32,759 nucleotides of DNA from an uncultured Candidatus Berkelbacteria bacterium (lineage in GTDB: Bacteria; Patescibacteriota; UBA1384; 2-12-FULL-50-11), in contig CAIMEH010000019.1 in the NCBI GenBank assembly GCA_903839975.1, positions 1 to 32,759 on the forward strand. Direction: 5' to 3'. The notes below the pieces were generated by a model. It saw only the letters and a list, made by a program, of their open reading frames with translations, was not told the DNA's origin and did no database searches. Below are positions 3,136 through 28,343 of the stretch, one piece after another. The number at the start of each line of letters is the position of its first letter. Positions within the stretch are counted from its first letter, which is position 1. Made by a program: the position numbers and the translations under genes.

Positions 3136-3624
3136 ATGGGATTTCTAACCGACAGATTTAATACAATTACCAATTCTTTCCAAGGCCAATTATTGCCAAA
3201 TGGCGTATTTTGGAGATCGCTATTTAGCTGGGATTTTTGGATGGGCAATTCAATTGTCGATTTCTCCGCCTATTCATTATTTATAATTATTATTTTTGTA
3301 ATTTTTATCGTCGGCATGCTTGTATGGCGCTGGCGTTTAATAAGATTGAATAAAATAAATAATTTTTACGATTCACCGATCTATCAAGTGACTTTTCTAA
3401 CTATTTTCTTTTTTGTAACCGTACTAATATATGCCTTTTGTAGTCTTCAGGCGTTGCCAACTATTTCCAGCCCGTTTGTACTTATGGGCATACTTTTAGT
3501 CACTATTATTTGGCTAATGGCAATTATCGTTTACACCTTGCGCGTAATCCCGCAAAAACGACGTGCCCAGCTTGAAAAAGAGCGGTTTTTAAGGTATATT
3601 CCTAAGAAGAAAGAGAGGATTTAA
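3136..3624 (+). CDS. Integral membrane protein of unknown function
   Basis: 162-aa ORF with several hydrophobic helices; ATG lies 3 nt after the tRNA-Phe end. Confidence 0.75.
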   Translation: MGFLTDRFNTITNSFQGQLLPNGVFWRSLFSWDFWMGNSIVDFSAYSLFIIIIFVIFIVGMLVWRWRLIRLNKINNFYDSPIYQVTFLTIFFFVTVLIYAFCSLQALPTISSPFVLMGILLVTIIWLMAIIVYTLRVIPQKRRAQLEKERFLRYIPKKKERI

Positions 3625-3629
3625 TACAC

Positions 3630-4697
3630 ATGTCCAAGACTGTTACACCAACGCCCAAAACCATGGCCGAGCTCGTCGAGCTCATGGGCGATAAACTAGT
3701 GCCATTCGTTCAGGGGGACGTACTAGATGTGACCGTTTTGTCTTCTTCTAAAGATAATATTATGGTTGACGTCGCAGGCGTCGCCACCGGTATTATTCCG
3801 GAGAAAGAGTTCTCAGCTACCGCATCACGTTTGAAATCTGGCGATACCGTCAGAGCTTTCGTCATGTCTGCAGAGAACGATAACGGATACGTTATCCTAT
3901 CACTCAAACGCGCCGAAAAAGAGCGTTTATGGAACATGCTCGAACAGCGCAACACCGCTGGTGAGATTATCAACGTCAAGATCGTTCAAGCCAACAAGGG
4001 TGGATTAGTTGCCGAATACGGCAACATGCAGGGCTTTATACCTGTTTCCCAGCTCTCATTTAAGAACTATCCACGTGTTGATGGCGACCGCAGCAAAATT
4101 CAAGAAAAATTGTCCGAATTAATCGGCCAGTCAATTACTGTAAAGATTATTAGCTACGACAAACCAACCAATAAAATCGTGTTCTCCGAAAAAGCTGCCG
4201 GCGATGCCGACCTCGAAGAGAAAGCCAAAGGCTACGAAGTCGGTCAGAAAGTTACCGGTAAAATCACCGGTATCGTCGACTTCGGACTATTTATTAGCCT
4301 AGGCGATATCGAAGGCCTTATTCACATCTCCCAAGTTTCATGGCAGCGAATCAGTAACCTAAAGGATCACTTCCATGTCGGTGAAGAAGTTGAAGCTGAA
4401 GTTGTTAATGTCGATGGCGGCCGCATCTCACTCTCAATAAAGAAACTTCAGAGCGATCCATGGCAGATGGAAGCGAAGAATATGGAAGTTGGCAGCAAAG
4501 TTAAGGGCGAGATAACCAAGGTTACCCCTTACGGCGCTTTCGTTAAACTTTCCGACAATCTTGAAGGCCTATTCCACATCTCACAGATGGGCGAAGGCAA
4601 GAAACCAGAAGAGATCGTAGAAGAAGGTAAGAAATACGACTTCGAAGTTCTCTCGGTTGAACCAGAGCTAAGAAAAATCTCACTAAAGCTGGCATAA
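3630..4697 (+). CDS. rpsA: 30S ribosomal protein S1 (four S1 domains)
   Basis: Four S1 repeats, e.g. GQKVTGKITGIVDFGLFISLGDIEGLIHISQVSW and GSKVKGEITKVTPYGAFVKLSDNLEGLFHISQM. Confidence 0.93.
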   Translation: MSKTVTPTPKTMAELVELMGDKLVPFVQGDVLDVTVLSSSKDNIMVDVAGVATGIIPEKEFSATASRLKSGDTVRAFVMSAENDNGYVILSLKRAEKERLWNMLEQRNTAGEIINVKIVQANKGGLVAEYGNMQGFIPVSQLSFKNYPRVDGDRSKIQEKLSELIGQSITVKIISYDKPTNKIVFSEKAAGDADLEEKAKGYEVGQKVTGKITGIVDFGLFISLGDIEGLIHISQVSWQRISNLKDHFHVGEEVEAEVVNVDGGRISLSIKKLQSDPWQMEAKNMEVGSKVKGEITKVTPYGAFVKLSDNLEGLFHISQMGEGKKPEEIVEEGKKYDFEVLSVEPELRKISLKLA

Positions 4698-4698
4698 A

Positions 4699-5166
4699 AT
4701 GATTAGCACTCGTTTGACAAAAGAAGGGGCAATCGAGCTATCAGACAAAAAGTCTGCCTTGGTCCTAAAGGCCGATCAGATTACCTTGGGCGAACAGGGC
4801 TTTAATGAGCCGGGCGAGTACGAGACCAACGGCATAGAGATTATCCGTGGTACCAACGGTGCCTTAATTGTCTGGGAAAGATTGCAGATAGTATATGTTT
4901 TCTCTCTTGAAAAACCAACCGTTTTCGAAGAATCACAGTTCTCGTCTTGCGACGTACTGTGTTTCTACGCCAACGGCACTGAATTAAATAAGAACAATGC
5001 TATGCCAGTTCTGGACAGTTATGATCCAAAAGTACTAATTCTGCCAGCCGGTACCCACGCTGAAGCATCATTCAAAACCAGCCTAAAATTGATTGAAACA
5101 AATAACTTAAAGCTTAGTGAACAAACAATGCCAGTGGAGGGAAGGGACGGTTACCTACTCTCATAA
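4699..5166 (+). CDS. Hypothetical protein, possibly related to metallo-beta-lactamase-fold (UlaG-like) proteins
   Basis: 155 aa immediately downstream of rpsA; GEYE-x-NGIEI...YDPKVLILPAGTH pattern; metal ligands not seen. Confidence 0.5.
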   Translation: MISTRLTKEGAIELSDKKSALVLKADQITLGEQGFNEPGEYETNGIEIIRGTNGALIVWERLQIVYVFSLEKPTVFEESQFSSCDVLCFYANGTELNKNNAMPVLDSYDPKVLILPAGTHAEASFKTSLKLIETNNLKLSEQTMPVEGRDGYLLS

Positions 5167-5172
5167 TTCAGG

Positions 5173-6108
5173 ATGTCGACAAAAATCACCGACATCGTAA
5201 GTGCGCTAAAGAAGTCCGAAAAAATAGCGATAGTTATTCACCAAAATCCTGATGGCGATGCCATCGGAAGTGCGGTGGCATTATTTGAAGGACTAAAAGA
5301 ATTGGGTAAAAAATCCGAAATAATTTGTACTCAGGATTTTCCGGAGATATTTGAAAAACTAACCGGCAAAATTAATGTAAATAATTCCCTACCAAAAAAT
5401 GGTGAATTAATTATTTTACTTGATTGCTGCGATATTCACCGAACTGGATTTTCCAAACAACTCAAAGACTACAAAGGAAAAATTGTTAGCGTCGATCATC
5501 ACGCAAACGGCGACATTCGTAAATTACCGGGTTTGCACTTACGAAACGAATCAGCCAGTGCTACTTCCGAGATCATCTTCGAATTGCTGGCGGAGCTTAG
5601 GGTTAATATTACTACTAAGATCGCCACTGCCGTGCTTTTAGGCGTTTACACTGACACAGGCGGCTTCCTACATAATAACACCACTAGCGAGACTCTATCG
5701 TTGGCCAGTCGCTTAATTCGTTACGGCGCCGACATATCTAAGATAGGAACAACTTTTACTCGAACAATGCCAGCCTATCAAAAGAAAATTTGGGGCAAGA
5801 TTCTATCAGAAATAAAAATAAATAAGTTAGGAGTTGTTATCGCTGTAATTAGCCAAGATATTTTAAAAGAAAACGGCGCAAAAAGTGAGGATTTTGCTGG
5901 TCTAGGTAATTATTTAGCGCTCACCAATGAGGCTAGGGCGTCTTTAGTGATGGTTGAGACTGAACAAGGCTGGCGTGGAACGCTAAGAACTCGTCACTCA
6001 ACGGTAGATATCGGCTTTTTGGCCAAGATTTTGGGCGGTAAAGGCCATAAAAAAGCCGCCGGATTTTCAACGACAAAAGACTCATTTTCAGGTAAAATAT
6101 CTAAGTAG
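5173..6108 (+). CDS. nrnA: DHH-family phosphoesterase, NrnA-like (oligoribonuclease/pAp phosphatase)
   Basis: HQNPDGDAIGSA, LLDCCDIHRTG, VDHHAN and C-terminal LGGKGHKKAAGF motifs. Confidence 0.88.
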   Translation: MSTKITDIVSALKKSEKIAIVIHQNPDGDAIGSAVALFEGLKELGKKSEIICTQDFPEIFEKLTGKINVNNSLPKNGELIILLDCCDIHRTGFSKQLKDYKGKIVSVDHHANGDIRKLPGLHLRNESASATSEIIFELLAELRVNITTKIATAVLLGVYTDTGGFLHNNTTSETLSLASRLIRYGADISKIGTTFTRTMPAYQKKIWGKILSEIKINKLGVVIAVISQDILKENGAKSEDFAGLGNYLALTNEARASLVMVETEQGWRGTLRTRHSTVDIGFLAKILGGKGHKKAAGFSTTKDSFSGKISK

Positions 6109-6135
6109 CCTCGGGCATTACTTAAGATGCAGTGG

Positions 6136-6164
6136 TTGTAATTTAATTATTCGTTTGCCATAAT
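6136..6164 (+). promoter_or_regulatory. Predicted sigma70-type promoter for the HNH gene (leaderless geometry)
   Basis: TTGTAA (6136) - 17 nt - CATAAT (6159), then 7 nt to ATG 6172. Confidence 0.5.
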
Positions 6165-6171
6165 AATATTA

Positions 6172-6660
6172 ATGACGAGGAAACGAAGCTGGACCATAGA
6201 ACAGCTTACGGAAGCGGTAAAAAGTTCGAGCAGCATTCGACAAGTTATTTACAAGCTTGGTCTAGTGCCTGCTGGGGGCAACTACCAGCAGATAAACATG
6301 TATATAGGCGAAGCTGGTATTCCTACGAGCCATTTCACAGGGAAGGTCTGGAATAAAGGGTTGAGAGGTATCGGAAGACCTAAATATAAGCTTGAGGAAT
6401 TACTTGTCAAAAATAGGCCCTTCCAGAGCTATAAGCTAAAGAAAAGATTAATATCCGAAGGTCTAAAACGAGCCTGTTGCGAGGAATGTGGCTGGGATAA
6501 AATAACGCCAGACGGGTATCAACCATTGGAGCTTGATCATATTAACGGAGATCACTTCGATAATAGGATTGAAAATCTAAGGATACTCTGTCCAAACTGC
6601 CATAGCCTAAAACCTACTCATCGAGGCAGAAACCAAAAACGAGCGAGTAGCAAAAGATAA
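6172..6660 (+). CDS. HNH endonuclease family protein
   Basis: CEECGW...LELDHINGDHFDNRIENLRILCPNCHSLKPTHRGRN (HNH with CxxC/CxxC); HTH-like N-terminus. Confidence 0.9.
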   Translation: MTRKRSWTIEQLTEAVKSSSSIRQVIYKLGLVPAGGNYQQINMYIGEAGIPTSHFTGKVWNKGLRGIGRPKYKLEELLVKNRPFQSYKLKKRLISEGLKRACCEECGWDKITPDGYQPLELDHINGDHFDNRIENLRILCPNCHSLKPTHRGRNQKRASSKR

Positions 6661-6684
6661 GCAAACGAATAAGATTAATATATT

Positions 6685-6768
6685 GCCTGAGTGGCGGAAT
6701 TGATATACGCGATTGACTTAAAATCAATTGCCCGTAAGGGCTTGTGGGTTTGAGTCCCACCTCAGGCA
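6685..6768 (+). tRNA. tRNA-Leu (TAA)
   Basis: GCCTGAG/CTCAGGC; anticodon loop CTTAAAA in ATTGA/TCAAT; variable arm GCCCGTAAGGGC. Confidence 0.93.
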
Positions 6769-6772
6769 CATT

Positions 6773-6846
6773 GGGCGCATAGCTCAGCTGGTTAGAGCGA
6801 CTGCTTTACACGCAGTAGGTCCTAGGTTCGAATCCTAGTGCGCCCA
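6773..6846 (+). tRNA. tRNA-Val (TAC)
   Basis: GGGCGCA/TGCGCCC; anticodon loop TTTACAC; T-arm CTAGGTTCGAATCCTAG. Confidence 0.95.
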
Positions 6847-6917
6847 CAAAAATACCAAAAGTGAATTTCTAAAAGCGAAAACAAGCTGATGACATTTCCA
6901 GATATGAAAGTTTCCGC

Positions 6918-6923
6918 TATAAA
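6918..6923 (+). promoter_or_regulatory. Predicted -10 box of the fic gene (leaderless geometry)
   Basis: TATAAA with 6 nt to ATG 6930; -35 not convincing. Confidence 0.4.
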
Positions 6924-6929
6924 TTAGTT

Positions 6930-8060
6930 ATGGGCGAGACTAAGATATATGTTCCTGATGATGCTGACGAGTTTATAGAAGATAACAATAAGGAGATTAG
7001 TCGGGAAGAACAATCTGAGCGTTTATTTAGATTTTTAGACCTAACTAATGCCGAACAATTCTTTGATACGGATGAGCATAAGAAGGAATTCATAGGTAAC
7101 CTTACATATGAGGACTTTACAAATCTTCTACTGCATATAAACGGCATACTTCGAGATATACCCCAAAATGAGAGAACCCTTTTTCAGAAGGTAGGAATCG
7201 TTGTCCCAAATACCGAAGGGAGTATCCATACGTTTATCGACATTCCAACACCGAGTGACTTTCCACGAACAGAAGAGAAGCCAGAGCTATTAAAATACGC
7301 ATTTAATCGATCAAAAGAATTGGAGAGTCCGGAGGACGTCGGGTTGGTTATTGGATATGCTATAACCGCAATCCATATCTTTGGGGATGGGAACGGGAGA
7401 ACTTCAAGACTAATCTATGACTTACTCAGCACCAACTACACAGGATCCGATAGTAACAAAGAATTTCTAAGAAAAGCCCTTGCAGAAGAAGGCCGTTTTG
7501 ATACCCCCAATTTAGATCCAACAGAACTGCTCATAGAAACCTGTGAAAAAATGATTTACGACGAAGGCTATTTGACATACAACGACGAGCCACTTTGGTT
7601 CGACTTTGCTCAAATACGGGCAGCTCTAAGAGACAGGGGTGATTTGGAAGACCAAGAAAAAGAGACACTTCTTTATCTGGCAGATAGAGGAAATTACGAT
7701 AGGGAGGCTGTACGTCTTTCTTTGGTAAGATACCTGAAGTCGAGTGACCAATTAGATGAATATACTAAACACCTTCCGGAATATAGAAATGAGAGATTGG
7801 CCCAATACCTCCCATCACGCTATGTAGTTGATAACGACAAGTTTGCAGCAAACTGTAATAGCAATGATATAGAGGGATTCTCTAAAGGTTATTGGGATTC
7901 AAAGAGGGATATGGTAAAAGAACTCGTCGATAATCTTGTAGAGAACAGACGATTGGGAAATAATGACGAACCTGCTCGAGAATTTGCCAGGGATATAATG
8001 TCCAAGTGGTTCGACAAGGTCAATAGAGATCGCTCAGAAGATTCCGCGGATCCAATTTAA
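6930..8060 (+). CDS. Fic/DOC-family protein (putative AMPylase/nucleotidyl transferase)
   Basis: Fic core AIHIFGDGNGRTSRLIYDLL matches HxFxDGNGRxxR. Confidence 0.9.
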   Translation: MGETKIYVPDDADEFIEDNNKEISREEQSERLFRFLDLTNAEQFFDTDEHKKEFIGNLTYEDFTNLLLHINGILRDIPQNERTLFQKVGIVVPNTEGSIHTFIDIPTPSDFPRTEEKPELLKYAFNRSKELESPEDVGLVIGYAITAIHIFGDGNGRTSRLIYDLLSTNYTGSDSNKEFLRKALAEEGRFDTPNLDPTELLIETCEKMIYDEGYLTYNDEPLWFDFAQIRAALRDRGDLEDQEKETLLYLADRGNYDREAVRLSLVRYLKSSDQLDEYTKHLPEYRNERLAQYLPSRYVVDNDKFAANCNSNDIEGFSKGYWDSKRDMVKELVDNLVENRRLGNNDEPAREFARDIMSKWFDKVNRDRSEDSADPI

Positions 8061-8167
8061 GAAAACGGCTAGTTTTCTACCTGCTCCAAACATTCCAGTT
8101 TCGGGAACGAAACGTTGGGATCGGCCAACAGGGTGCGAATGTTGTCTACTAGCGCCCACAAAGAAAT

Positions 8168-8199
8168 GCCCGCGAGTTATTTACTCGCGGGCGCTTTGT
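8168..8199. terminator. Bidirectional terminator-like hairpin
   Basis: Perfect 10-bp stem GCCCGCGAGT / ACTCGCGGGC between convergent genes. Confidence 0.75.
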
Positions 8200-9015
8200 T
8201 TACTCAGCCGTAAACAGGTTATTCAACTTAAGAACGCTTTCCTGATCAGCCATAAGCTTCAGCCGATAATTAGCCAAGCGAACCAAGACTTCGCGCAGTG
8301 GGCTAGCGTATTTTGGGTAAATTTTTTCGTCCTCGACCCCAGATAGCTTCATCTCTTCTTCGGCGTAACTAAGCAATCTCTTGCCAAGGCTCAAGATTCG
8401 TTTCCTGTCAGGCAGCTCAACTTGAGTGCCGGCTTTACCTTGCAACATCCACTGATCAATCGTCCGATTTATCAGCTCCAACGTGGGATGTTTCCCGCCA
8501 TATCCGTCCTTCTGCTCTGCCCACCAATGTGAGTTGTTGAAATACCGACCATGTTTGTGGTACTCCAGCTCAAGACAACCCCGACCAACTTGAAAGACAA
8601 GATCATCGAGTGCTTCGACGTGCTTTCTAGCTTCTTCCTTCGAGCTACTTAGCTCGTCTATCCATTTTCGTGAGGCAAGAATACCGACAAAGGCACCGTA
8701 ACCTGCACCTCTGGGGTACTCTGGATCGGGGAAATGGAAGGGTTTGGCCAGAGCGTTTATAAGACCAAAGAGGCTCTTGATGTTGTCGCAGTTGGAGTAG
8801 AGCGTTTTTATCAGATCCACGACATCGCCCGACCACAACTTGAAGTTCTCGTTTACGACGACATATTTGCCTTCCATGATTGTTTTGACCACAGCCGACT
8901 CGAAGTCCTTTCTTGTCGAAACACTTTTGGCATTTTCCCGTAGGCCATCTAACAGGTTGGTGTGCTGAAACATCGCACGATCAACTGAGAATTGAGAAGT
9001 TTGTTCTGTTTTCAT
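8200..9015 (-). CDS. Hypothetical protein, 271 aa
   Basis: Long ORF, AGGAGAAC SD upstream of its ATG, own terminator; no family recognised. Confidence 0.7.
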   Translation of the reverse strand: MKTEQTSQFSVDRAMFQHTNLLDGLRENAKSVSTRKDFESAVVKTIMEGKYVVVNENFKLWSGDVVDLIKTLYSNCDNIKSLFGLINALAKPFHFPDPEYPRGAGYGAFVGILASRKWIDELSSSKEEARKHVEALDDLVFQVGRGCLELEYHKHGRYFNNSHWWAEQKDGYGGKHPTLELINRTIDQWMLQGKAGTQVELPDRKRILSLGKRLLSYAEEEMKLSGVEDEKIYPKYASPLREVLVRLANYRLKLMADQESVLKLNNLFTAE

Positions 9016-9106
9016 AAATGTTCTCCTGACAATCCATATGCGATTGCCGGCAAGAACATACTACCTCAATTGGGCCATAAATACAGCCTATTTGGCTCAA
9101 TTTTAC

Positions 9107-21836: not shown

Positions 21837-23174
21837 TTACCTCTTTTTAGTGACGAGAACGTAAGCTGATGAAAGTATTAGCAGCAAAACGATTAGCCCA
21901 ATGAATATTACCGCAAGTACCAGGGGTGAGGCAAGTATCGAACCTGAATTATTTGTCGGAGTACTGGTGGCCGTAGTTGTTGAAACTCGGTTTGGATCAA
22001 AGCTAATCTTAGTTGCTCCAATTGTTTGACCTGCCACAGCAATGTTTATGCCAATAGTTTGTGCCGTCTTAACTACTGGTGTAATAGTGGCAAAATAGAT
22101 ATCTCCCTGTTTCTGAACATCAGAAACAGTCGCCTGCCCAGAACTTACCAAGACGGTCGGCGAGGAGCCTGAGATAACCTTTCCAGTATCTTCTATTGGC
22201 ACAAAGTAAATAGTCGAAGTGTCCTTGGCCAAAGTTGGCAGGGTTTGAATCTCTGCCTTAGCAGCAACAGTCCCAGCCACAGCCATACTCTTTGTTACAA
22301 ACGAGTAGATACTACTGACTTGCTGACTGGATTTCACCGTGTCGGTAGTTGTCACCTTGTAGTAGTAGCGAGTATTTGGAGTTAGCCCAAGTAAGGTAAC
22401 TGCCGGATTTACACTTGCCAAATTAGTTTTTATTTGGCTGGCGAGATTATTTTGATCGGTACCAAAATCTACCGTTGCCATAACGCTAGTATTGGCTGTA
22501 GTCGTAATCTCGGCATCGGTCGCACCTGCTAGTGCATTAACAGATAAGACTTGACTCGCCTGGTAATCGATCGGCTTTATTGAGGAAGTTGGAAGAGTTG
22601 ATGTGCCAGTATTTGTACTTGTGCCGCTAGCACTGGCGAGAACAAAAGCACTCTGTAAACTACTGGCTGCATTATAAAGGCTAGGATTCTGAGACGAATC
22701 AACCACCATAATTTGGGTACTTCCATCAAATATAAATGACGACGAACCGGTTTTAGTAGCCTGATAATCAATCGTGCCAATTGTCGTATCGCCATTTATT
22801 TGAGCTAACGGACCAATGTCGGTACTTGGAACCAATACCCACTGGATTAATCCGTTATCGTTTGTAACTTTTTCTGACTGCCAGCCAACCGCTGCTTGGG
22901 TATCGGTAACTTTAATGATGTCCGAATATTTCAGACTTATCTCGACAGAGGCAACATAACTACTGCCGGAAATATTTGTATGCACTTGGAGACTTTGGTT
23001 AGTTAATGGCGCAATAGTGGACTGAGCTGGGCTTAGATAGATAGCTGTATTTGCCTGAGCCGCATGGAAAATTGTTCGCTGCAAAATTGCCGATCCAACC
23101 AACAATATCAACGTTACAATCGACAAGATAACAAACATTCGGCGTGGCGAGATTACTTTGTTTCTTGCGCTCAT
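21837..23174 (-). CDS. Cohesin-like domain + FN3-like domain surface protein with N-terminal signal/TM and C-terminal TM
   Basis: YLSPAQSTIAPLTNQSLQVHTNISGSSYVASVEISLKYSDIIKV...IGTIDYQATKTGSSSFIFDGSTQIMV resembles cohesin folds; GLTPNTRYYYKVTTTD FN3 signature; C-terminal LVLAVIFIGLIVLLLILSSAYVLVTKKR. Confidence 0.6.
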   Translation of the reverse strand: MSARNKVISPRRMFVILSIVTLILLVGSAILQRTIFHAAQANTAIYLSPAQSTIAPLTNQSLQVHTNISGSSYVASVEISLKYSDIIKVTDTQAAVGWQSEKVTNDNGLIQWVLVPSTDIGPLAQINGDTTIGTIDYQATKTGSSSFIFDGSTQIMVVDSSQNPSLYNAASSLQSAFVLASASGTSTNTGTSTLPTSSIKPIDYQASQVLSVNALAGATDAEITTTANTSVMATVDFGTDQNNLASQIKTNLASVNPAVTLLGLTPNTRYYYKVTTTDTVKSSQQVSSIYSFVTKSMAVAGTVAAKAEIQTLPTLAKDTSTIYFVPIEDTGKVISGSSPTVLVSSGQATVSDVQKQGDIYFATITPVVKTAQTIGINIAVAGQTIGATKISFDPNRVSTTTATSTPTNNSGSILASPLVLAVIFIGLIVLLLILSSAYVLVTKKR

Positions 23175-23743
23175 GTGCTCGTACCTCCGATTTTTGGTGT
23201 CGTTCCTTGATGTAACCTAACCAAAGCCAGGTCCGCAGCTGTGACGGTACCGTCGCTGTCAACGTCCATAGCTTTGTTAGTGGTAAATAAATTATCAGCT
23301 ACCGCCTTTTCGTCTTTTTCGTCAATAATGCCATTATTATCAACGTCGCCAAGCTGCGGAGTTAAGGTAGCTTGGCTTGTTAGCTTCAAGTCGCCAACTG
23401 GCAAATTTATTGGCAAGGCAGTAGGTAGCGTAATAACGATATTTGTACCAGTGTTAAAGAAACTAGCTAAGTTGCTAAGATCAAGTTGGCGACAGTTAAT
23501 TACTGTCATCTCCTCATTGAATTGGTCGGCTACTTTAACGTTGGCGGTTTTGGGGCAATAAGATACCGGTAGATCGGAAAAAGTTACTAAAGTATTATTT
23601 GATTTATTTGTAGAGCTAGCCCCGAAAAGTGTTACTTGTAGCAACCAGGAAAGAGCGGCAATTACCACAACAATAATTAGGCCAATAACGATCCCCAGAG
23701 TTCGAGTTCTGCCCCTAATCTGATCGATCTCCTCCTTATGCAT
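23171..23743 (-). CDS. Dockerin type I-like protein with N-terminal TM anchor
   Basis: Two Ca-loop repeats: GDVDNNGIIDEKDEKAVADNLF and DVDSDGTVTAADLALVRLHQG; TM LGIVIGLIIVVVIAALSWLLQ. Confidence 0.85.
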   Translation of the reverse strand: MHKEEIDQIRGRTRTLGIVIGLIIVVVIAALSWLLQVTLFGASSTNKSNNTLVTFSDLPVSYCPKTANVKVADQFNEEMTVINCRQLDLSNLASFFNTGTNIVITLPTALPINLPVGDLKLTSQATLTPQLGDVDNNGIIDEKDEKAVADNLFTTNKAMDVDSDGTVTAADLALVRLHQGTTPKIGGTST

Positions 23744-23810: not shown

Positions 23811-25391
23811 ATGCGTAAACTTCTACTTGGAGCCTTAATTATTACCAGTTCATTGTTTTTCTCGACAAAATCATTGGCCGCCGGCGCCGAGACAGCGATA
23901 TCTGACCTTAGTGTTTCCGCCCAGCTCCAAACTGACGGCAGTGCCGATGTCAAAGAGACCTTAACTCTGGCCAGTCCGTCGACACTTAACTGGACCATAT
24001 ACACAAACTACCGCAATCTTTCCGTCCAAGCCGATGGCGCTACTGCCAAAGCAACAAAACAAAACACCGGTGGCACAACCGTGCTTACCAGCGACCAAAC
24101 AGCCCAGGTCTGGGTAATTAACTTTCAGGCCACAAATATTCTTATTCGTCACAACGACCGGGATCAATTCTACTTCAAGCTCTTTGAGAATACCGGACGA
24201 CAAATATATAACATCAGCTCCTCTTTTGCGCTGCCAGGTACCGTCGGCAGTAACGATCTAAGTGGCAACGCCTACGCAATTGACGGTGTTCTTGATAACA
24301 CAACATCAAAACCTACAAACAATAGCCTCCTTTTCACTAGCTCGTTTGCCAGCAATCAATCGATCTACACCCTCAGTGCCAGCTGGCCAAATAGTGTCTT
24401 AAATCTAAACTGGCTGACAGATTTCCGGCTCTCATTATTAAATTTAAATTTAATCCCATGGATGGTTGTTGGCCTAATTCTGCCACTTATCGCCCTGTTT
24501 GTTTTATGGGATTTAATTAGAAAACATCGCCGCAACGAGCGACCGGTTAAGACGATTCTGCGTGAGCCGTCTAGCTATTTACCACCAATTCTGGTTGGCG
24601 TACTAGTCAACAAGAAAGTCCACCCTAACGAGATCGTCTCCTTAATCGTAGACTTATGTCAGCGCGGCTACCTTGTTATCGTTAAAAAGAACGATAACTA
24701 CACCCTAAGCTTGCGTAAAGCCCCTGACGACAATCTTCAGAATTGGGAGAAGGAGATACTGCTTCAGCTTTTTCCTGAGACTAAAAAACTTTCGGATAAA
24801 CAGGCAAAAACTATGGGCAATGATATATTGTTTAGCCCCACCGTCCGAGATGCTTTCGATAAAATCTACTCTGTTGTGACCCAGATGAAGTTTTTTACCG
24901 AGAACCCTCATATCACCCGCATTAAATATAAGCTTTTCGGTTTGGCTTTCTACTTTATAGGAGCGATCGGACTAATCTGGGTAGCCGTTGCCGGGTTACC
25001 CGCCTATCTACTCTTCCCGTTCATCGCTTTGTTGGTTGTTGCTTACTTCATTATCAAATTATCACCAAAGCTAGTTAAATACAGTCTTGTAGGTTTCGCT
25101 AAAAGAGAGGAGTGGCTATCTTTCCGCAACTCTCTTACCTCAAACGAGAGATTTGGTGTGAATGAATCGCAGAACCATGTTTTTGAGAAGATATTGCCTT
25201 ACGCTATCGCCCTTAACTGCACCGAGCAATGGGCCAAGAGGTTCGACTCAGCCAGCATCACCATGGCTAGACCAGACTGGCTAATCACTTACGAGGATAG
25301 TAGCGCCTTAGATCTAACCAAAGAGTTAACTGATTTTACTGGAAAAATCTCCGAATCGTTGACGTCACTTCGTGGCCCGATGGTTAGCTGA
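23811..25391 (+). CDS. DUF2207-family membrane protein with signal peptide
   Basis: Signal peptide, beta-rich DUF2207-like N-terminal domain, central TM, YLPPILVGVLVNKKVHPNEIVSLIVDLCQRGYLVI, two later TMs. Confidence 0.8.
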   Translation: MRKLLLGALIITSSLFFSTKSLAAGAETAISDLSVSAQLQTDGSADVKETLTLASPSTLNWTIYTNYRNLSVQADGATAKATKQNTGGTTVLTSDQTAQVWVINFQATNILIRHNDRDQFYFKLFENTGRQIYNISSSFALPGTVGSNDLSGNAYAIDGVLDNTTSKPTNNSLLFTSSFASNQSIYTLSASWPNSVLNLNWLTDFRLSLLNLNLIPWMVVGLILPLIALFVLWDLIRKHRRNERPVKTILREPSSYLPPILVGVLVNKKVHPNEIVSLIVDLCQRGYLVIVKKNDNYTLSLRKAPDDNLQNWEKEILLQLFPETKKLSDKQAKTMGNDILFSPTVRDAFDKIYSVVTQMKFFTENPHITRIKYKLFGLAFYFIGAIGLIWVAVAGLPAYLLFPFIALLVVAYFIIKLSPKLVKYSLVGFAKREEWLSFRNSLTSNERFGVNESQNHVFEKILPYAIALNCTEQWAKRFDSASITMARPDWLITYEDSSALDLTKELTDFTGKISESLTSLRGPMVS

Positions 25392-25441: not shown

Positions 25442-27262
25442 ATGAGGGGGATAAAAATTTCACGGCGACAATCATTATGGTTAGTATTATTCGCAGTACT
25501 TGTAGTTGCTGGCGTTATTACATATTTTGTCTGGCCTTCATTACATGCTAGTACTGTTATGACCACTCCACTCTCGGCTCACATCCTACCTGATGGTTGC
25601 GGCAGTAACGGTGGGGTAGTAACCGGGCCAGATAATAACATTTGGTACACCGATACCGTTTGTAACAAGATTGGCAAGATTACTCCAGCCGGGGCGGTAA
25701 CCGAATATTCAATCCCAACTAGTGCTTCCGACCCAAGGGAGATTACTGTTGGTCCAGATGGCAATATGTGGTTTACAGAGTATCTCAAGAGTCAGATAGG
25801 AAAAATAACCAAAGAAGGATTAATTACCGAGTACCCAATAACTTCTTCCGCCAACGCCATGCCACAAGGCATAACAGCTGGTCCAGACGGCAATGTTTGG
25901 TTTACTGAATACGTTGGTGAGGTCGCCAAGATTACCAGAGATGGCGTAATAACTGAATATGCTGCCCAATCCGGCTCAGGACCGATAAGTATTACAACCG
26001 GTTCAGATGGCAACATCTGGTTTGCTGAGTACACCGCCGGCAAGATTATCGCAATAACCCCGGATGGTAAATCAAAAGGGCTATTCACTATACCAACCGC
26101 CAACTCGTTTCCAACAAGTATAATTTCTGGGCCCGATGGCAACATTTGGTTTACCGAAAGCGGTGGTGGCAAGATTGGAAAGATAACTATTAATAATGGC
26201 GTTCCGTCACTTACCGAGTACCCTCCCGGAACACTAAAAACCAGTTATAGCCCGTATCGACTTACTAGCGGACCAGATAATAAAGTTTGGTTCACGGAGA
26301 CAAATGGCTACTTGGGCTACGTACTAATGGATGGCACCGTCAACGAGTTTCCTCAGAGCATCGGCACGTTACCAACAAGAATGCCAACGCTACCGTTAAG
26401 AGACCCTATTAACATAGCCACTGGACCAGACGGTAATATGTGGTTCAGTACAGCCTACTCTTCAACTCTGGCTTTCACTGGTAAGCAGTACAACTATATC
26501 GGTATAGTTCCACTTGTCTCTACGCCAGTAGTCTCTTCCGTAACATTCTCGCCAGCTTCAGGAATGCTAACAATTGGCCAAACACTGACGTTAACTATTC
26601 ATACCGATGGTTATAACTACACCGGCAAGAATATAACCATAAACGGTAAAGACGTTACGGCAAGCTTTAAGCATCTGACAGGTAACGACTACTCAGTAAC
26701 TTACACTGTTGCCGCCGGCGATAACGACGTTACTGGCCCAGCAGGCATTCCAGTAAGTGTAGTTCTAAATAGCCTCTCGAACATATCAAACGCGCCATAC
26801 GCCCCAATTCTCAAGATATCCGACACTCCATCTATCGATGCCAGCGCCCCAACAATCAGTGCCGGGGCCGACAAAACAATCTATCAGAACGGTAAAACGG
26901 TGCTAAACGGTACGGCAAGTGGCCAGGCTTCTCTAACTTGGTCATCAGATAGCTCGGTAAAGTTTACTTACTCTACCGACTCCACTCCCACTCCAACCCC
27001 TACAGTCACAACCGATACAGTTGGTGTCCACATAATTACTTTGACTGCCGTTGATGCTAATGGAAACACTGCCACCGACACCACCTCATTAAACGTCTAC
27101 AAGCATGGCGACATTAACAACGACGGCAACGTCGATGAAAATGATTTCACGTTACTGCTTTTCAACTGGGGCACTCCAACAAATCCGATGGCCGATCTTG
27201 ATGGAGATGGAGTAGTCGATGATAACGACTTCACGGTACTTCTATTTTGGTGGGGTAAATAA
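25442..27262 (+). CDS. Vgb-like beta-propeller + Ig/PKD-like domains + C-terminal dockerin type I, N-terminal TM
   Basis: Seven G(P/S)D(G/N)(N/K)xW(F/Y) propeller repeats; C-terminal GDINNDGNVDENDFTLLLFNWG...ADLDGDGVVDDNDFTVLLFWWGK. Confidence 0.88.
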   Translation: MRGIKISRRQSLWLVLFAVLVVAGVITYFVWPSLHASTVMTTPLSAHILPDGCGSNGGVVTGPDNNIWYTDTVCNKIGKITPAGAVTEYSIPTSASDPREITVGPDGNMWFTEYLKSQIGKITKEGLITEYPITSSANAMPQGITAGPDGNVWFTEYVGEVAKITRDGVITEYAAQSGSGPISITTGSDGNIWFAEYTAGKIIAITPDGKSKGLFTIPTANSFPTSIISGPDGNIWFTESGGGKIGKITINNGVPSLTEYPPGTLKTSYSPYRLTSGPDNKVWFTETNGYLGYVLMDGTVNEFPQSIGTLPTRMPTLPLRDPINIATGPDGNMWFSTAYSSTLAFTGKQYNYIGIVPLVSTPVVSSVTFSPASGMLTIGQTLTLTIHTDGYNYTGKNITINGKDVTASFKHLTGNDYSVTYTVAAGDNDVTGPAGIPVSVVLNSLSNISNAPYAPILKISDTPSIDASAPTISAGADKTIYQNGKTVLNGTASGQASLTWSSDSSVKFTYSTDSTPTPTPTVTTDTVGVHIITLTAVDANGNTATDTTSLNVYKHGDINNDGNVDENDFTLLLFNWGTPTNPMADLDGDGVVDDNDFTVLLFWWGK

Positions 27263-27293: not shown

Positions 27294-28343
27294 ATGAAAA
27301 GAATCACTGGAAAAATAGTTTCAATTTTACTGGGAGTAGCAGCTATTGCTCTTCTGGGTATTACTCCAGCTGCCGCCTCAGCAACAGCCACCATCTCTGC
27401 CTCACCAGCCAGTGGAAGCAAAACAGTCGGTACCAGTTTCAATATCGCTATCGTTGTTGACGGTGGCGGCCAAAGCTTTACTTCCTTTAGCGCTACTGTC
27501 TCCACTACCAACCTTACTGTCCTATCGCTGACAAAGGGTTCAAGCGTTACTCAATGGATAACCCAACCGAAACTTGAGTCGGGAGTTGCTTCGCTAAGCT
27601 TTTCTGGAGCCGTTTCTGGATCGGCAACGAGCGTGACTGTTTATACTCTATCCGTACAAGGAACTAGTACCGGCGCAGCCGCTATCACTATAAGCAACGG
27701 TTCAGTTAAGACAACGGACGGCTACACTGTTACCAACATCTTCTCTTCATCAACAAGTGGTAGTTACACTATTGCCGCTGCAGCCACGACCCCAGCTCCG
27801 ACAACCACACCAAAAACTACTACACCAAAGACAACCACAACTCCCCCAAAAACAACAACTACACCAACACCAACTACAACCACTCCAACCGTAACCACTC
27901 CTGCCCCAGTAGTACCGACAACTACTACAGTAGTCGCCAAGATAACTCTGCCAGACGGCACTGCAGCTGTTGGCGCCACAGTAAGCTTGTCGTCAATTAC
28001 TGGTACAAAAACTACTGATAGCGAAGGGCTTGCGCTCTTTAGTAGTGTTGCCCCAGGAACATACACTCTAAGCGCTAGCACTCCTGACTACTTCGGCAGT
28101 AAAGACATAACAATTACTATCGACAGTGCCGTAAATAGTGTGGCTCTCGAACTTGCAAAAAAGCCTATCAGCAAAACTGTTCTTTATGAGATCGGTGGCG
28201 GAGTCGCTGCATTACTAGCAATAATTATCTTCATAATCGTGATAGTAAGAATTACCCGAATAGGCAAGAATGAGCCGGAGCAAACAAACAATATTCATAC
28301 ACCGGTTCCGCCAAGTATTTTGCCGCCAAGCCAAGGCGTCTAG
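27294..28343 (+). CDS. Cohesin-like domain protein with Thr/Pro linker, carboxypeptidase-regulatory-like domain and C-terminal TM
   Basis: Signal peptide; ATISASPASGSKTVGTSFNIAIVVDGGGQSFTSFSATVST...GTSTGAAAITISNGSVKT; TTPKTTTPPKTTT linker; C-terminal GGGVAALLAIIIFIIVIVRITR. Confidence 0.7.
   Translation: MKRITGKIVSILLGVAAIALLGITPAAASATATISASPASGSKTVGTSFNIAIVVDGGGQSFTSFSATVSTTNLTVLSLTKGSSVTQWITQPKLESGVASLSFSGAVSGSATSVTVYTLSVQGTSTGAAAITISNGSVKTTDGYTVTNIFSSSTSGSYTIAAAATTPAPTTTPKTTTPKTTTTPPKTTTTPTPTTTTPTVTTPAPVVPTTTTVVAKITLPDGTAAVGATVSLSSITGTKTTDSEGLALFSSVAPGTYTLSASTPDYFGSKDITITIDSAVNSVALELAKKPISKTVLYEIGGGVAALLAIIIFIIVIVRITRIGKNEPEQTNNIHTPVPPSILPPSQGV

Follow-up and report, generated by a model that had tools for sequence, protein, structure and literature searches.

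A dockerin-tagged Vgb-like propeller beside a cohesin gene: a candidate surface-display cassette in Patescibacteria

Among the central open questions about Patescibacteria is the way in which they attach to host cells and exploit them. Cohesin–dockerin pairing is known outside classical cellulosomes (PMC9705933, PMC8542988, review PMC12484212). The Coh–Doc pair of Archaeoglobus fulgidus works outside cellulosomes and has been used for E. coli surface attachment (PMC9705933), and Ca. Stygibacter, a member of the Cloacimonadota, has a cellulosome-like complex whose dockerin-tagged exported proteins include an S8 peptidase (PMC8542988). In Southlakia epibionticum, the dockerin envelope protein SEML1_0315 was essential in a Tn-seq screen; its authors speculate about adhesion or degradation and name no cohesin partner (PMC10633639). 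Within the open-licence literature searched, we found no paper on cohesin–dockerin pairs in Patescibacteria and none on Vgb–dockerin fusions.

Here we describe such a fusion in a contig of an uncultured Candidatus Berkelbacteria bacterium (CAIMEH010000019.1, positions 1 to 32,759; this whole stretch of 32,759 nucleotides is called the window). We think it likely that the fusion gene and its downstream neighbour form a cohesin/dockerin cassette for display that is anchored in the membrane, depends on calcium, and can exchange its cargo, the cargo here probably being a non-catalytic binding propeller.

Architecture of the propeller–dockerin protein and its neighbour

The open reading frame begins with ATG and encodes 606 residues (Table 1). 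Its hydrophobic N-terminal helix would be either a signal peptide or a signal anchor, and cleavage near LHA-S (residues 34-37) is possible. The propeller that follows has exactly seven copies of the repeat motif (residues 62, 104, 147, 187, 230, 277, and 328), spaced about 40-51 residues apart, and its family match is far beyond chance. The region matches Pfam Vgb_lyase (PF24684) at E=2e-68, and the nearest solved proteins in a PDB search are those of virginiamycin B lyase (2z2n/2z2p, E=1e-61). AF2, run on the 606-aa protein with a ten-row alignment of window and related-locus sequences, produced a closed seven-bladed propeller mostly at pLDDT 85-97 with one weak loop at residues 306-312, and Foldseek superimposed it on Vgb (2z2n/2z2o) with a TM of 0.90-0.91 over about 306 columns at about 32% identity. 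The full seven-bladed propeller proposed in the sequence-only reading of this DNA is thus borne out, while the description of its blades as degenerate proved inaccurate: the fold is intact, and what is missing is the catalytic residues.

The same reading placed Ig/PKD-like domains after the propeller, and these held up only in part. For the PKD-like domain the match is weak (PF22352 E=0.0024, below cut-off; modelled pLDDT about 50-70), and the Ig-like stretch at residues ~360-460, which has no Pfam match and an AF2 pLDDT of about 30-60, is not confirmed. The two-repeat calcium-binding dockerin was recognized correctly: two complete D-x-(N/D)-x-D-G-x-V-D-x-x-D calcium loops are present, all ligand positions are occupied in both, and in the AF2 model each loop is followed by a helix (residues 566-574 and 594-604). 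Of the two findings that the sequence-only reading named as refuting it, a propeller that does not close and C-terminal repeats lacking Ca-ligand geometry, neither was obtained. The match to Dockerin_1 (PF00404) is borderline, with 23.6 bits for the domain alone against a cut-off of 22.9 and 18.6 bits in the whole-protein scan; a dockerin profile built from 25 relatives (A8) matched the PDB dockerin 2y3n_B at E=7e-13. Because residues 464-606, comprising the PKD-like domain and the dockerin, share 45-46% identity with the C-terminal ends of proteins at two other loci (L007 and L008) that are unrelated in their remaining parts, and recur in more divergent form at L010 and L009, the PKD–dockerin unit is, on these alignments, a transferable tail.

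Table 1. Features of the locus. Positions are those of the window; residue numbers are those of the respective protein.
Feature	Residues	Position	Strand	Basis
Weak cohesin-like domain, fn3/PAP_N-like domain, TM		21837..23174	-	profile A7 domain E=1e-4, full-sequence E=0.05 (window ORFs)
190-aa membrane-anchored small dockerin protein, divergent set		23171..23743	-	PF00404 E=9e-4; profile A8 E=2e-7 (window ORFs)
DUF2207 membrane protein		23811..25391	+	PF20990 1e-29, PF09972 2e-9
Propeller–dockerin protein, whole gene	1-606	25442..27262	+	ORF, Pfam, PDB and structure matches
N-terminal hydrophobic helix	8-29	25463..25528	+	hydropathy; AF2 helix 8-29
Seven-bladed Vgb-type beta-propeller	44-346	25571..26479	+	PF24684, AF2, Foldseek, register test
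Ig-like linker, unconfirmed	~360-460	26519..26821	+	low-confidence AF2 strands
PKD-like domain, weak	~474-552	26861..27097	+	PF22352, below cut-off
C-terminal type I-like dockerin	553-606	27098..27259	+	PF00404; profile A8; AF2 helices
Dockerin loop 1, DINNDGNVDEND	557-568	27110-27145	+	full calcium-ligand positions
Dockerin loop 2, DLDGDGVVDDND	585-596	27194-27229	+	full calcium-ligand positions
349-aa cohesin partner		27294..28343	+	ORF, Pfam, hydropathy, AF2, Foldseek
Cohesin domain of partner	29-166	27378..27791	+	AF2, Foldseek, profile A7
C-terminal transmembrane anchor of cohesin protein		28173..28253	+	hydropathy; AF2 helix

The cohesin gene lies downstream after a gap of 31 bp. Its product is arranged as a signal peptide, the cohesin domain, a Thr/Pro linker, a weak prealbumin/CarboxypepD/SdrD-like domain, a C-terminal TM helix (hydropathy peak from residue 294; AF2 helix 303-325), and a basic tail. 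The cohesin domain itself gave no match to Pfam, PF00963 (Cohesin) included, and a direct Pfam cohesin search of its own genome returned just a weak match, elsewhere; the partner was therefore identified by family profile and structure. Residues 31-163 were modelled mostly at pLDDT 85-95, and the best Foldseek match of the domain is 2xdh, a non-cellulosomal cohesin of Archaeoglobus fulgidus (E=4.3e-8, TM(target) 0.72). All but one of the 50 Foldseek matches listed are cohesin entries; the remaining one is a fibrillar adhesin domain. A family profile of 30 relatives (A7) matched the PDB cohesin 5m2o at E=3.5e-4, and PF00963 matched 12 of the 30 partner relatives, at best with 3.4e-8. The assignment of the window domain as a cohesin thus rests on its predicted structure and the family profile.

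A gap of 50 bp separates the DUF2207 gene from the dockerin gene that follows it, and the DUF2207 gene may belong to the transcription unit as a third member; in a promoter and terminator scan, promoter sites were no commoner than in shuffles. The two genes on the opposite strand, 21837..23174 and 23171..23743, overlap by 4 bp in a shared ATGA. We considered them as a second cassette and rejected this, the cohesin being weakly supported once out of the training set (the 21837..23174 protein was a seed of profile A3). Elsewhere in the window, positions 6930-8060 encode a Fic/DOC-family protein (PF02661 E=4e-6), near an ORF at 6172-6660 with an HNH-like motif read by eye.

The propeller and the lyase question

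H228, E268, and E284 of Vgb have roles in its catalysis. The PDB entry 2z2p bears the title 'catalytically inactive H270A'. The window propeller was aligned in all seven circular registers to residues 19-292 of 2z2n, a sequence pieced together from printed alignments. Across the seven registers, the equivalent of H270 was I, N, Q, I or Y, or unaligned, and that of H228 was Y, I, R, R, Q, T, and T, in no case His. Residues 44-348 contain a single His, H47, which lies on the N-terminal strand. The propeller also fell far short of the NCBIfam Vgb(A) and Vgb(B) models, with 169 and 151 bits where the cut-offs are 600. Because neither histidine is present in any blade register, it is unlikely that the propeller acts as a streptogramin lyase through the known mechanism; it shares the Vgb fold but, on the relevant tests, falls outside the enzyme family, so that the Vgb name denotes the fold only. 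Carried over into resistance annotation, the label would mislead, given the missing catalytic histidines.

A surface-displayed, active streptogramin B (virginiamycin B) lyase that protects against the antibiotic would agree with the strong Vgb family match and the shared fold (TM 0.91). The register test and the NCBIfam scores make this highly improbable, and we rejected the active lyase as a candidate. The advice of the sequence-only reading not to assume lyase activity was sound, and of its proposal of a displayed ligand-binding or lyase module, display is probable while a lyase using the Vgb site is disfavored. Another activity, at the Vgb site or elsewhere in the propeller, may exist. A different enzyme, lactonase-like or active on glycans and displayed through the cassette, would fit a further match of the propeller to SGL/gluconolactonase-like Pfam (E=5e-6), a superfamily whose propellers include lactonases, and it has a precedent in another cassette that bears an enzyme, a subtilase. 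We nevertheless regard such an enzyme as unlikely: the SGL match is probably due to repeats that propellers have in common, and no recognizable catalytic constellation was found at the Vgb site, the place covered by this comparison. Because the lyase site is eliminated, and by analogy with propeller–PKD surface proteins (1l0q), the most likely role of the propeller would be binding of a ligand or host surface, or adhesion; this is the weakest step of our proposal.

Recurrence, cargo, and covariation of the gene pair

The family was traced with profiles seeded with seven cohesins and five PKD–dockerins from this and related genomes; named relatives belong to Candidatus Berkelbacteria and other Patescibacteria MAGs. 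Among 55 genomes of the class, dockerins were found in 30 and cohesins in 26, and at 33 distinct loci the cohesin gene is an immediate or near neighbor of the dockerin gene (the pairing of ORFs gave 34 rows, one neighboring pair in genome G015 being counted both ways). In most of these pairs the cohesin gene lies directly downstream, with a gap of -7 to +120 bp. Across 380 genomes of the phylum, 124 have a dockerin, 134 a cohesin, and 97 both (Fisher OR 21, p ~1e-34, with genomes treated as independent, which they are not). In genomes outside the training set, a cohesin follows at least 47 of 78 dockerin matches on the same strand at a distance of at most 1 kb, and one match has its cohesin upstream; random placement would give about 0.1% per dockerin match, a rough figure for about two cohesins per 1 Mb genome and two strands. 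These counts cover 41 of 55 non-training genomes and, coming from the matches listed, are lower bounds. For 18 of the 78 matches no cohesin was present on the contig among the matches listed, the contigs being fragmented, and one dockerin protein (L008/L082) is without a cohesin neighbor. The best reading of these gene arrangements is that the dockerin–cohesin part would be a conserved Patescibacteria cassette with exchanged cargo.

The cargo is diverse. The commonest in the class is a protein of about 380-430 aa whose N-terminal part belongs to no Pfam family (e.g., L002 1483-2682); other cassettes carry an Ig-repeat-like, Ig-rich protein (L007/L080), a 2459-aa protein (L010/L081), or the subtilase (L087). 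A second subtilase–dockerin (L110) had no cohesin match in the stretch examined. The Vgb propeller occurs in one of the 55 class genomes and has a match in five of the 380 phylum genomes. At the Vgb loci of the other four Patescibacteria genomes there was no dockerin or cohesin match, and in the plasmid and phage Vgb matches listed the propeller alone was covered, so Vgb plus dockerin as a common fusion is not supported. Because Vgb is rare and, in the other four genomes, has no dockerin match, the propeller seems to be cargo gained recently by a display tail that was already there, a direction that we infer. Vgb-type propellers were also seen on contigs classed as viral (L125 8442-9581 (-), L126 5445-6899 (-), and L124 4545-5564 (+)) and in a Streptococcus phage record, MN270260.1, where the protein is annotated 'putative hydrolase'.

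A cellulosome-like complex for polysaccharide breakdown would use the same interaction modules, and another Patescibacteria genome encodes a scaffoldin-like protein that combines two cohesins with a dockerin, beside two large dockerin proteins. For the window locus we consider such a complex very improbable: there is one cohesin and one dockerin, the pair includes no carbohydrate-binding module and no CAZyme, and just three dockerin proteins were found in this genome. The scaffoldin-like gene (L174, G344 C23, 9055-10731 (-)) and its neighbors of 920 and 949 aa (6287-9046 and 3436-6282 (-)) form a possible mini-scaffold in their own genome. Two further arrangements were noted. At L105 (G015), adjacent genes at 3758-4879 and 4887-5900 (+) each encode both a cohesin and a dockerin, and these proteins could in principle chain into polymers. 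At L176 (G121 C7, 218-11881 (+)), six dockerin-tagged proteins are encoded on one strand with no cohesin match in the 14 kb examined, the cohesins of G121 being on another contig.

The identity matrices of dockerins and cohesins are correlated (r=0.67; 32 pairs from 26 genomes, leaving out L105, which gave self-pairing). When cohesins were swapped just between cassettes of one genome, the true pairing ranked first among 64 arrangements; the signal is therefore not only species phylogeny. In 14 of the 32 pairs, dockerin and cohesin share their nearest neighbor in other genomes. The closest cassette relative of the window dockerin is G029 C4, with 59% identity for the dockerin and 67% for the cohesin, and G029 bears a second, more distant cassette besides. 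From adjacency and covariation, the dockerin here is predicted to bind a cohesin.

These data also bear on an arrangement in which each protein has its own anchor, so that binding would tie two surface proteins together or the dockerin would be no more than a calcium-stabilized tail. The hydrophobic helix at the N-terminus of the dockerin protein could stay uncleaved and act as an anchor, and dockerins outside cellulosomes are also reported, with the partner not stated, for a giant ORF of Omnitrophota (PMC10066038). A pure tail would not explain why, across the phylum, the next gene downstream is repeatedly a cohesin gene or why the pairs covary, and we judge either version to be a minor possibility.

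A display model and its relation to known systems

The observed folds, calcium-loop residues, gene adjacency, recurrence, pair covariation, and missing catalytic histidines are brought together in our preferred model of a membrane-anchored display cassette, whose export, topology, and order of steps are predicted from the sequence. The propeller–dockerin protein would be exported via its N-terminal signal, and the dockerin would fold with calcium outside the cell. The calcium-loaded dockerin would then dock onto the cohesin of the protein encoded immediately downstream, which would be held in the cytoplasmic membrane by its C-terminal TM helix; both the physical binding and its calcium dependence are predicted. 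Docking would present the propeller outside the cell, where, having lost or never had the lyase histidines, it would most likely bind or adhere to an external ligand, for example a glycan or a component of the host-cell surface. If the N-terminal helix stays uncleaved, the protein may be self-anchored, and the role of the dockerin would then be cross-linking instead of anchoring. That the sequence-only reading took the fusion for a displayed module agrees with this model; what it lacked was the adjoining cohesin receptor gene and the recurrent cassette.

A plug-and-socket pair with differing payloads across the group suggests a swappable surface-display system. Only tentatively, and at less than even chance, would we extend this to a phylum-wide modular surface in which orthogonal two-gene pairs present exchangeable adhesion or enzyme modules to the cells that carry these ultrasmall bacteria, new cargo such as a Vgb-type propeller being fused to the resident PKD–dockerin tail. 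If the cassette works as proposed, an anchoring mechanism becomes open to direct testing, the diversification of surface proteins in reduced genomes is accounted for, and a large new set of candidate orthogonal cohesin–dockerin pairs is at hand.

Each of the closest described systems shares part of this design. Vgb (2z2n/2z2o/2z2p, 2qc5) has the same seven-bladed propeller (about 32% identity, TM 0.91), whereas the window protein is without the catalytic His270/His228, is predicted to be exported, and is fused to PKD and dockerin. The archaeal surface-layer protein 1l0q (Foldseek rank 7) likewise places a propeller before a PKD domain on the cell surface; its propeller is of the YVTN type, and the protein is not known to have a dockerin. 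As in the type I cohesin–dockerin pairs of cellulosomes, the dockerin has a duplicated calcium loop and the partner a cohesin fold, but the window pair is without a multi-cohesin scaffoldin, carbohydrate-binding module, or CAZyme cargo and has a TM-helix anchor. Ca. Stygibacter similarly tags exported proteins with dockerins (export being predicted here), but uses a multi-cohesin scaffoldin of 3,755 aa with CBMs where the window system has a single-cohesin partner (PMC8542988). SEML1_0315 of Southlakia epibionticum is, like the window protein, a dockerin protein in Patescibacteria. The Archaeoglobus fulgidus cohesin 2xdh is the best structural match of the partner domain; unlike in that archaeal pair, a TM-anchored single-cohesin gene here lies directly downstream of the cargo–dockerin gene, an arrangement found phylum-wide.
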